64,000 nt of DNA from Microcystis aeruginosa NIES-4325 (GTDB taxonomy: Bacteria > Cyanobacteriota > Cyanobacteriia > Cyanobacteriales > Microcystaceae). The notes beneath the pieces were generated by a model. It was not told where the DNA came from, made no database searches, and saw only the letters and a program-made list of their open reading frames with translations. A program made the translations under genes and the position numbers. The stretch covers positions 62,001 to 126,000 of the forward strand of contig NZ_BJKP01000008.1 in the NCBI RefSeq assembly GCF_008974145.1. The letters are read 5' to 3'. The first letter of the stretch is position 1. The number at the start of each line of letters is the position of its first letter. Of the stretch, positions 39,945-42,634 are shown one piece after another.

Positions 39945-40084
39945 CGTTAATTCTTGCTTGCCGTTGGTTCTTAACTATTGTAAACGGGGGGTAGTCACCA
40001 CGACCAGGTTGGCCGGAAAGATCGCTTTCAGGTTTGCTGGGGATACTCATTTTTAAAAGTTGCCTTCAGCCAATTATTATTATA

Positions 40085-40095
40085 GACTATAAGTT
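40085..40095 (+). promoter_or_regulatory. Single C-box operator at the methyltransferase promoter
   Basis: GACTATAAGTT matches the controller-protein half-operator GACT-N3-AGTC at 10 of 11 positions shared with the perfect box at 42516-42526. It overlaps a -10-like TATTATTATAGAC and ends 19 nt before the methyltransferase ATG. That position suits repression of the methyltransferase gene by the controller protein encoded at 42198-42443. Confidence 0.7.
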
Positions 40096-40114
40096 ACATG
40101 GAGTCAGAAAATCG

Positions 40115-41455
40115 ATGAGGAAAGCAATCAGTCTATTTGCCTGTGGTGGAATTGGAGATATGGCTCTTCGCTCTGGGGGATTTGAAGTTGTAGTGGCGAA
40201 TGAATTATTGAAAGATCGTGCAGAAGTATTTAAATTTAACCACCCAGAATCATTAATGATTATTGGGGATATATGGGATACAAAAAATGAGATAGTCGCA
40301 GAAACAAAGCAGCGACTCTCTGGACAAAATTTAGACATTGTTTTTGCGACTCCTCCCTGCCAAGGTATGTCTAGAAATGGCAGGGGTAAGCTGCTTAATT
40401 CTATTCGTAAAGGCTCAAAAAATGAAATCGACCAGAGAAATTTATTAATCATTCCCACCCTAGAAGTTTTTCTGGCTAGTGGAGCAGAAACACTGGTCAT
40501 GGAAAATGTGCCAGAAATGCAAAATACTTATATACCCTTTCCCGAGAAAGATGATTATTTGGTAAATATTTTATGTTATATAAAACAGCGTATTGGTGAT
40601 AAGTTTTTAAGTTCGATTAGCATTATAGATTTTGCCGATTATGGAGTCCCGCAGAATCGTCAACGACTTATTTCAATATTTACTAAAAACGAGAAACTGA
40701 AGAATTATTTAAAAAAGAACAATTCTCTTTTTCCTAAACCAACTCATAGTAAAGAAGGATTAGAACTTCCCAGATGGAAAACTGTTCGAGACGCAATATA
40801 TCATTTACCACCACTTGACTCTCAACGAACAGAAACTGCTAAATCAGATGATATACCATATCACTATGTACCCCTATTAGATGAAGAAAAATATTTTTGG
40901 ATCAGTAATACACCAGAAGAAAAAAGTTCATTTGATAATCAATGTATTAACCCTGTTTGTAGATATAATGGTAATCCAACACACAGCGCACGCAAAAATA
41001 ATGAAGGAATTAATCGAGCTAGTACAGAAACCCCCCTTTACTGCCTTAAATGTGGACACATTCTTCCTCGTCCATGGGTTAAAGAAGATGGAAAATACAG
41101 GTTGATGAAAGGTTATACCAGTGCCTATAAAAGAATGAGTTGGGACGCACCAGCCAGTACAATTACACGAAATCTCTCCTATGCTTGTAGTGACAATAAA
41201 CTACATCCTATTCAAAATAGAGTATTATCTCTGTATGAAGCAATGATTCTTCATACAATTACCGAATACCCATTTTCATGGAAACGGGCAGATGGCAAAA
41301 GAGTTAGTGATAAACTAATTAGAGAGTTAATTGGCGAAAGTATCCCACCTGCTGGATTACAAAAAATATTTGATCATTTAGTATCCATCCTCAATGATGA
41401 TTGTTCTCTTGAGGAGCAAATCAAGGAAAAATATGAGCAGCTCTGTCTATTTTGA
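40115..41455 (+). CDS. DNA (cytosine-5) methyltransferase of a type II R-M system
   Basis: A 446-residue m5C methyltransferase. Motif I is LFACGGIGD (7-15), motif IV PPCQGMS with catalytic Cys82, motif VI MENVPE, motif VIII QNRQR (180-184), and late motifs lie near 370-385 (NRVLSLYEAMILH). The variable target-recognition region (190-345) contains two Cys pairs, C277/C282 and C310/C313, likely a zinc ribbon. The ATG at 40115 begins directly at motif I spacing; an open frame extends 27 codons upstream without support. Its 3' end overlaps the convergent endonuclease gene by 9 bp. The gene is visibly AT-richer than its neighbours, consistent with transfer. Confidence 0.9.
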   Translation: MRKAISLFACGGIGDMALRSGGFEVVVANELLKDRAEVFKFNHPESLMIIGDIWDTKNEIVAETKQRLSGQNLDIVFATPPCQGMSRNGRGKLLNSIRKGSKNEIDQRNLLIIPTLEVFLASGAETLVMENVPEMQNTYIPFPEKDDYLVNILCYIKQRIGDKFLSSISIIDFADYGVPQNRQRLISIFTKNEKLKNYLKKNNSLFPKPTHSKEGLELPRWKTVRDAIYHLPPLDSQRTETAKSDDIPYHYVPLLDEEKYFWISNTPEEKSSFDNQCINPVCRYNGNPTHSARKNNEGINRASTETPLYCLKCGHILPRPWVKEDGKYRLMKGYTSAYKRMSWDAPASTITRNLSYACSDNKLHPIQNRVLSLYEAMILHTITEYPFSWKRADGKRVSDKLIRELIGESIPPAGLQKIFDHLVSILNDDCSLEEQIKEKYEQLCLF

Positions 41456-42217
41456 AATTAAATTGTCTTTGTTATATTTGTTGACAAAATTAATATATCT
41501 ATCGTCATTCTTGATCATAATCCAGTTTTTATACATTTTCTTAACGCCTTGTCGTGACATAATTGAGACGCTAGTTGTTCTTCCACCGCCTTCTTTTGGC
41601 TGAACAATTTTACCCCAATCATTGTCAGTTAAGTTGTTGCAAAAAAAGACAGCAACTATTTGAGGTATAGTATTCTCAAAATCCCAGAGAATGCCAATAA
41701 GATTGTTAGTTTCTCTATGGTGAGCCTTCCAATCATAGCTTTTCATTACCTCGATTCTTGTGTCTCCCATATCAGGTTTTTCTTTTCCAGTCTTCTTTAA
41801 TTCTCTTGGTGTAGGAACACTGCCACAAGTGGCTTTAACCTCTACTCCCCCATTAGCAAATGGACTAGATGGAGACTTATCTCGCATTCGTCTTTCTTGG
41901 GAAAGTTGTTCAAAAAAAACTTTGCCATTTTTATCCATTAACAGCAAATCTGGATAGCCGTCTTGATGCGGATTGTTGATAAATAATCCCTGGGATTTAT
42001 TGGCAAATTCTATGGCAAATAGCTCACCAATAAATGCAGAAAGATTTCTCATACCTAGAATTCCAAATATATCTACTGGTATATCTTGGACTATTTTTTT
42101 AACAACAGAATCACATTCAACTAATGAATGCTCAAATATGACTTTATCGATAGTTATTTTCTGACCCTGTTTTGAGAAAAAGCTGGTATCAGAATGTTTA
42201 TTTATGATATAACTCAT
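41447..42217 (-). CDS. Probable type II restriction endonuclease
   Basis: A 256-residue protein with a PD-(D/E)XK pattern: E65 in FIGELFAIEF, D90 in GYPDLLLMDKNG, E126 and K128 in GGVEVKATCG. It follows and overlaps the controller-protein gene by 20 nt and is convergent with the methyltransferase. Cleavage specificity should match that enzyme. The family was not firmly recognised; similarity to ApaLI-type enzymes is possible but unverified. The ATG at 42217 is chosen because the longer frame would sit deeper inside the controller gene. The gene is AT-rich like the rest of the island. Confidence 0.75.
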   Translation of the reverse strand: MSYIINKHSDTSFFSKQGQKITIDKVIFEHSLVECDSVVKKIVQDIPVDIFGILGMRNLSAFIGELFAIEFANKSQGLFINNPHQDGYPDLLLMDKNGKVFFEQLSQERRMRDKSPSSPFANGGVEVKATCGSVPTPRELKKTGKEKPDMGDTRIEVMKSYDWKAHHRETNNLIGILWDFENTIPQIVAVFFCNNLTDNDWGKIVQPKEGGGRTTSVSIMSRQGVKKMYKNWIMIKNDDRYINFVNKYNKDNLISK

Positions 42218-42443
42218 TAATTTCTTCCGCAACACTATTGACAAAAGTAACAATATCCATGTCCAGAGCTGAAATAATTTGTTCTAAGGAGTCCAAAGTA
42301 ATGTTTCTTACTCCCCTTTCAACTCCAGATATGTAGGTTCTGTCAAGATTAGCCCTATACCCTAAAGCTTCTTGACTCAGATTACGTTTCTTCCGCAATT
42401 TTCTTACAGTCACAGCAACAGCAGTGACTAGCTTTCCTGCCAT
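42198..42443 (-). CDS. Restriction-modification controller (C) protein, XRE/HTH type
   Basis: An 81-residue protein that is almost entirely a helix-turn-helix domain. Residues 10-70 read VTVRKLRKKRNLSQEALGY, then RTYISGVERGVRNITLDSLEQI, the signature of C proteins of the PvuII/Esp1396I kind. These dimers bind C-boxes, first activating and later repressing the C-R operon, and repress the methyltransferase gene. Upstream on its own strand are two matching C-boxes. It overlaps the endonuclease gene by 20 nt. Confidence 0.88.
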   Translation of the reverse strand: MAGKLVTAVAVTVRKLRKKRNLSQEALGYRANLDRTYISGVERGVRNITLDSLEQIISALDMDIVTFVNSVAEEINELYHK

Positions 42444-42500
42444 ATATAAACTACCAAAGAAGATATTGAAATTCTTTACAGTCCATTTTCCTTCTATGAT

Positions 42501-42526
42501 GACTATTAATCTACGGACTATAAGTC
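42501..42526 (-). promoter_or_regulatory. Tandem C-box operator of the C-R operon
   Basis: Two 11-bp boxes have centres 15 bp apart. The distal one (42516-42526) is a perfect GACT-N3-AGTC palindrome, GACTATAAGTC. The proximal one (42501-42511), GACTATTAATC, is imperfect. A strong distal and weaker proximal site is the layout that gives activation then repression in known C-protein circuits. The controller ATG lies 58 nt downstream on the minus strand. Confidence 0.8.
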
Positions 42527-42634
42527 ACAAAAGCTGATTCTCAATAAACCTGTATTCGGGAGCGGCAAAAACTCTGATTTTGTGTTTGACTAAAAATATA
42601 TCCTAAAGATTGCCATACCGTTGCGATTCTATCC

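Follow-up and report, generated by a model that had tools for sequence, protein, structure and literature searches.

The restriction enzymes Esp1396I and SnaBI cut CCANNNNNTGG and TACGTA, respectively, and the cyanobacterial genus Microcystis carries very many restriction-modification (R-M) systems. For the Esp1396I controller protein, C.Esp1396I, a section of PMC4041747 describes contacts of R35, T36 and R46 to bases and of Y37 and S52 to the backbone, and a passage of PMC3758141 describes an outer TG ahead of the box. Fusions of controller and restriction endonuclease of the PvuII type are covered in part of PMC3850674, and an excerpt of PMC8400943 lists for Limnospira a “type II restriction enzyme SnaBI” in two parts together with an “R-M system control protein (prototype C.SnaBI)”. 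In the open literature searched, SnaBI together with a controller protein led to no further paper, and neither did a Microcystis R-M methyltransferase with a controller; a passage of PMC8262939 states that, to its authors' knowledge in 2021, the endonucleases of Microcystis were all unverified. Here we describe a locus in a 64,000-nucleotide stretch of the bloom-forming cyanobacterium Microcystis aeruginosa NIES-4325 (contig NZ_BJKP01000008.1, positions 62,001 to 126,000; “the window” from here on). Positions 40020-42598 of the window appear, with a probability that we put at about 0.9, to hold a complete type II R-M system with controller regulation of the Esp1396I type, made up of a predicted 5-methylcytosine (m5C) DNA methyltransferase (M), a predicted endonuclease (R) and a predicted controller (C).

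Genes and operators of the predicted system

M is assigned to its class by Pfam family PF00145 (DNA_methylase; expect value (E) 1.5e-28, 100.6 bits against a cut-off of 22) and by the PADLOC model MTase_II (E 9.1e-55), and the motifs PPCQG, ENV and QNRQR can be read in it by eye. The gene lies on the plus strand, ends at 41455, and is convergent to the C-R unit, the R gene of which ends at 41447 on the minus strand. C is co-oriented with a separate R gene and directly upstream of it, the two overlapping by 20 nt (42198-42217).

C is matched by the PADLOC model Control_protein (E 6.3e-19), and its closest relative among solved structures is C.Esp1396I (PDB 3clc, E 8.2e-16). The five DNA-contacting residues R35, T36, Y37, R46 and S52 of that protein are all found in C under the same numbering. 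Ahead of the C-R unit, on the minus strand at 42526-42501, stands the tandem operator GACTTATAGTC-CGTA-GATTAATAGTC, with a distal box (OL) and a proximal box (OR) that start 83 and 68 nt ahead of the C start codon. Over these 26 nt it is identical to the Esp1396I OL+OR sequence at 21 positions (one spacer base of the reference was supplied by us), against 17 at the next-best position, and it is the top match of the 926,950 positions scored, which comprise the window and 400 kb of a sister genome. The tandem skeleton GACTN3AGTC-N4-GAYTN3AGTC has a single occurrence in 464 kb. The box before M (OM, 40085-40095) is GACTATAAGTT, which on the opposite strand reads AACTTATAGTC and has one mismatch to GACTTATAGTC. 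When up to one mismatch to GACTTATAGTC is allowed, there are three sites in the window, of which two stand at the M and C-R promoters, and one site in the 400-kb sister sample; taken on their own, such single boxes would mean little. The exact 11-mer GACTTATAGTC was also tried as a genome-wide marker of C control and rejected, as the loci of its two other copies in the genome gave no C match.

The PADLOC REase_II model PDLC03564 matches R with an E of 5e-65, and no Pfam or NCBIfam family scores above its cut-off. In an alignment of seven sequences P89, D90, E126 and K128 of R are invariant, which is the PD...ExK pattern; in a larger alignment of 15 sequences, all of which match PDLC03564, P, D and K are invariant and D replaces E in three distant members. 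An AlphaFold2 model of R has a predicted local distance difference test score (pLDDT) of 87.1 and a predicted template modelling score (pTM) of 0.87. The best restriction-enzyme rows of a Foldseek search with this model are SfiI and HincII, at E 0.3-0.4 and with a low template modelling score (TM-score), and the viral library gave no match at E <= 0.001. Comparison of R with the sequences of solved structures, both as a single sequence and as a profile, gave nothing relevant.

Table 1. Features of the predicted R-M island, in window coordinates
Feature	Position	Strand	Basis
Whole island	40020..42598		Breakpoints 39997/40019 and 42599 in alignments to sister loci; junctions absent from sisters carrying other cassettes
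OM, single C-box before M	40085..40095		GACTATAAGTT; begins 30 nt ahead of M start codon
M, predicted m5C DNA methyltransferase, 446 amino acids (aa), 4-Cys insertion	40115..41455	+	PF00145, PADLOC MTase_II, motifs
R, predicted type II endonuclease, SnaBI-annotated family, 256 aa	41447..42217	-	PADLOC REase_II PDLC03564; P89-D90...E126-x-K128
C, predicted controller, 81-aa helix-turn-helix protein, first gene of C-R unit	42198..42443	-	PADLOC Control_protein; PDB 3clc
OR, proximal imperfect box	42511-42501	-	GATTAATAGTC
OL, distal perfect box	42526-42516	-	GACTTATAGTC; outer TG ahead, as in Esp1396I

A sequence-only reading of this DNA had already proposed a cytosine-5 methyltransferase, a PD-(D/E)XK endonuclease candidate, a helix-turn-helix controller and C-boxes ahead of both units, and the model matches, the invariant residues, the kinship of C to C.Esp1396I and the ranking of the tandem operator given above agree with it on each of these. 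Its coordinates for the three genes and three boxes were all verified on the sequence, as were the 20-nt overlap and the contrast of a perfect distal with an imperfect proximal box. By its own account a match of the frame at 41447-42217 to a non-nuclease family would have refuted it; the frame matches the REase_II model. For its likening of the layout to the Esp1396I type, the protein families, the residues, the kinship of C, the sequence and spacing of the operator and the boxes in relatives (below) point the same way. It also called the island richer in AT than its neighbours: GC content is 35.4%, against 43.0% for the window, and none of the non-overlapping, equally long stretches of the window reaches so low a value.

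Relatives, operator types and methyltransferase partners

Relatives of R are found on a Streptococcus suis phage, a Peribacillus plasmid and an E. coli plasmid, and all three adjoin an m5C methyltransferase related to M. Identity to the copy in the S. suis phage phi-SsuHCJ31 is 51% over 200 aa for R and 48% for M. The R homologue of this phage is annotated as “R.SnaBI endonuclease”, the SnaBI name of the R family being one annotator's note in the phage record, and no C match was found at the phage locus. A scan of viral contigs gave 22 relatives of R by alignment and none by single sequence. A side observation concerns two loci (L051 2289-6351 and L138 2490-6673) with two tandem R paralogues next to two m5C methyltransferases; the paralogues form two well-supported pairs in the R tree, both retaining PD...ExK, and are possibly the two subunits of an enzyme with an asymmetric site.

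A profile search of 291 genomes of the order gave matches in 36, where many of the weak matches span less than half of the profile. Partner types were read where the neighbours were readable. An m5C methyltransferase is the partner at L158, L160, L165 and L166, and a D12-class adenine methyltransferase at L013, L014/L156 (a single locus), L157, L159, L161-L164 and L167; the D12 label comes from PF02086 at L013 (25.7 bits) and L164 (24.2 bits; cut-off 22) and was extended to the remaining loci by similarity to L013. At every partner-typed locus but L164 the methyltransferase is convergent to R; in L164 it is encoded downstream, on the strand of R.

Similar boxes are kept in two cyanobacterial relatives with an identity of about 70%, and in a third, the endonuclease gene of which is damaged. 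The tandem boxes start 79, 73 and 73 nt ahead of the C start in L158, L160 and L166, compared with 83 nt in the window. In the same order of loci, the number of mismatches is 0, 0 and 1 for OL and 0, 2 and 1 for OR. Ahead of M, an exact box GACTATAAGTC begins 33 nt before the ATG in L158, and TGTAGATTATAGTCAACA, which is similar to the Esp1396I OR oligonucleotide, lies close upstream in L160 and L166. A different operator type, GAATACTATWGTCTGTAGACT, is found in seven of the eight D12 loci with a readable controller, and AATACTATAGTATTCA or a near copy stands ahead of the D12 methyltransferase in six of the eight (absent from L161 and L164).

These operator types run parallel to two types of controller. 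Controllers of the window type read LDRTYIS..ERG.RN, with R at position 46, and those of the second type read IHRTYVSQIERGLKS, with K at 46; operator type matches recognition residues in 12/12 further controllers aligned, the second controller of this genome included. L164 has a D12 partner, yet an R46 controller and a GACTTATAGTC box, and L165, not counted in the 12, combines an m5C partner with a controller carrying the motif ERGLKS and a box resembling the GAATACTATWGTCTGTAGACT-type operator. Since these two loci separate controller type from methyltransferase type, the operator type, as far as sequences tell, goes with the controller and not with the methyltransferase, which is the expectation if the controller binds the operator. 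In both loci controller and endonuclease are fused in a single frame (L164 1495-2436, 313 aa; L165 1189-2154, 321 aa).

In a tree of 26 R proteins, seven D12-paired proteins lie on one side of a branch (support 98/95; 200/200 bootstrap trees). Under midpoint rooting, with a root that is not established and an unsure placement of the long-branched L165, the D12-paired proteins are nested among m5C-paired ones, and an exchange of methyltransferase partner between the m5C and D12 adenine types is therefore suggested.

The genome itself encodes a second controller gene, at 54930-55142 of contig C15 (L080), the product of which is 39% identical to C. It lies upstream of a 241-aa gene that matches the PADLOC REase_II model PDLC03537 (3.5e-115; no Pfam family), and the two are convergent to an m5C methyltransferase gene cut by the end of the locus. 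The tandem operator there is GACATATAGTC-CGTA-GACTTATCGTC and the recognition residues read LDRTYIS..ERGVRN. Its boxes are similar to those of the window system, and cross-talk between the two predicted C-controlled systems may be possible.

The pheT-oxygenase site and probable spread within the genus

The island is flanked by pheT (5 Pfam domains) and by a 2-oxoglutarate-Fe(II) (2OG-Fe(II)) oxygenase gene (PF13640), and at least one flank was matched in all of 12 genomes of the genus (G006 by the right flank only). The sequence-only reading had named presence or absence in sister strains as a check. An intact island stands at the pheT/oxygenase site in five of the 12 (G000, G001, G002, G005 and G011), a fragmented one is present in G010, and none was found in the remaining six, which hold different cassettes, one of them known from an end piece only. 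The breakpoint next to pheT is 39997 or 40019, and the opposite one is 42599. The other cassettes replace the island or stand beside it, and no empty site was seen among the 12 genomes.

One of these cassettes consists of a 189-aa gene of no known family and an N6_N4 methyltransferase (G004, G005, G007, G009 and G011; with the first gene shortened in G001, and broken off in G010). Another consists of an AAA ATPase and a DUF3226 protein matching the PADLOC candidate PDC-M38 (G003, G004 and G008; an end piece in G006). Between pheT and the oxygenase gene (39997-42599 in the window; L055-L066) there is a hotspot of defence cassettes in the genus, three unrelated ones alternating or stacking. In L055 (4234-4524), and likewise in L056, L057 and L062, the 189-aa/methyltransferase cassette ends in a pheT-derived copy, in which 215 bp from within the gene are fused with 74 bp that lie upstream of it; such direct repeats flanking the cassette could serve its loss or exchange by recombination. 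The C-R copy of G010 (L066/L074) is at a contig end, with C residues 34-81 at 73% and R residues 1-191 at 96%, and looks rearranged.

Synonymous divergence (dS) among the five complete copies is 0.007-0.052 for M, 0.020-0.076 for R and 0-0.075 for C, compared to 0.076-0.129 for pheT, a contrast that is clear for M and weaker for R and C. The ratio of nonsynonymous to synonymous divergence (dN/dS) is 0.05-0.45 in 19 of the 20 M and R pairs, all on few changes, with R at 0.05-0.37, and none of the five copies has an internal stop. Because the island genes, M above all, are less diverged than pheT, a recent spread is suggested, and the sequences fit exchange of the island within the genus with its proteins kept. 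The sequence-only reading had called the system recently acquired and working. The former stands as recent spread within the genus at one site; the latter receives indirect backing only, from the intact frames and the mostly low dN/dS.

Proposed circuit, candidate target and comparison with known systems

The order in which the sites are filled, the repression of M, the target and the activity of the system are what we infer in the following circuit. On entry, M would be made immediately from its own promoter and shield the chromosome, while C and R would begin from a weak promoter. Dimers of C would occupy OL first and recruit polymerase, so that C and R would rise after a delay; at higher C, OR would also be occupied and C-R switched off, and OM would be bound and M damped. 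Between Microcystis strains the island would move as one of several cassettes between pheT and the oxygenase gene.

A number of results weigh against this reading. Foldseek gave no PDB match for the R model at E <= 0.001. The 22 relatives of R on viral contigs yielded no C match at all, so this R family is not invariably paired with a controller. The single-box pattern GACTN3AGTC is seen once in the window with 0.5 expected, the exact 11-mer GACTTATAGTC occurs three times in the genome and its reversed control five times, and a scan for sigma-70 promoters did no better than shuffles (8 hits against 9.4 expected). In the sister-genome sample 1.7% of equal-length stretches are as AT-rich as the island; AT-richness is for this reason only weak support for a foreign origin and was dropped as proof of one. 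One M pair has a dN/dS of 0.69. As regards the target, TACGTA is similarly rare in carriers and non-carriers of the system among the 12 genus genomes.

One alternative is that genes and boxes are intact and the system is silent or partly decayed here, for example with R inactive and M kept for modification. The copy in G010 is indeed fragmented, and the statement of PMC8262939 cited above, as far as that passage goes, names no Microcystis endonuclease component as verified; this alternative is nevertheless improbable given the catalytic residues present in R, the five copies free of internal stops and the low dN/dS of R. Slightly less probable again is an arrangement in which C activates C-R and the box before M is non-functional, which would leave the plain timing of systems that have no controller site at M. 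The mismatch in that box and an M promoter that is not recognised by consensus above chance speak for it; the boxes ahead of M in L158, L160 and L166, and the separate box type ahead of M in six of eight D12 systems, speak against it.

The most serious competitor concerns the target. R probably cuts an unmethylated palindrome containing C, and on present analysis TACGTA is the leading guess. The present genome (3.88 Mb) has 8 copies of this hexamer, and the 11 other genus genomes have 9-29 each; in 400 kb of G002 it was observed 0 times, with 122 expected from composition or 11 from a fourth-order model, and a 400,000-base sample of G009 (60,000 unreadable bases included) also has 0. Avoidance as proof of the target is ruled out, as TACGTA is rare in 12/12 genus genomes and 16 other palindromic hexamers of the G002 sample also lie below 0.1 of the composition expectation; its rarity allows TACGTA as the target without pointing to it. 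That R recognises a palindrome other than TACGTA is quite possible, in view of these 16 hexamers, of the rarity of TACGTA in genomes with and without the system, and of a SnaBI label that goes back to the phage record. TACGTA is favoured over such a palindrome by the 51% identity of R to the SnaBI-annotated phage homologue, and the pairing of R relatives with m5C or D12 adenine enzymes would fit a site containing both C and A. Strong rarity is common among palindromic hexamers here, 17/64 in the G002 sample and 19/64 in the window being below 0.1 of the composition expectation, with ACTAGT, CACGTG, TACGTA and GCTAGC among the strongly rare ones; according to a passage of PMC2442094, palindromes make up more than their share of the rarest 6-mers in Microcystis PCC 7806.

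A tentative wider interpretation, on which we would not insist, is that C and R together make up a transferable timing module, in which control by boxes has been kept while the methyltransferase was swapped between cytosine-5 and adenine-N6 chemistry, and operators have changed with the recognition residues; the two modules of this genome may then cross-regulate. If this is true, compatibility of controllers would decide which R-M systems can coexist in one cell. One R family paired with m5C or adenine methyltransferases under controllers provides material on how R-M systems enter genomes and coexist in them, and the co-residence of two predicted C-controlled systems bears on the same question. 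With a candidate target, a complete predicted circuit and sister strains with and without the island, activity and timing are directly testable.

The window system is an ordinary but very complete example of a known C-regulated kind of R-M system and is not new in principle; a little interest is added by the suggested swap of partners, by how tightly operator and controller go together and by the presence of two controllers in one genome. The Limnospira snaX/snaRa/snaRb genes, in the excerpt of PMC8400943, can be likened to it by name alone. With the SnaBI-annotated copy of phi-SsuHCJ31 it shares homologous R and M, and differs in that the phage locus gave no C match. With the PvuII-like systems, as far as the part of PMC3850674 referred to above describes them, it shares the general type of C-box and a C gene upstream of, and often overlapping, R. 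Most of the systems shown there have a divergent M, whereas M is convergent here; C-R fusions, as described there, occur in L164 and L165, and in the window C and R are separate. The closest likeness is to the much-studied Esp1396I system, with which the locus has in common an M convergent to C-R, OL and OR before C-R and one OM before M, the DNA-contacting residues of the controller and an operator identical at 21/26 positions, while, unlike in Esp1396I, R belongs to the SnaBI-annotated family.

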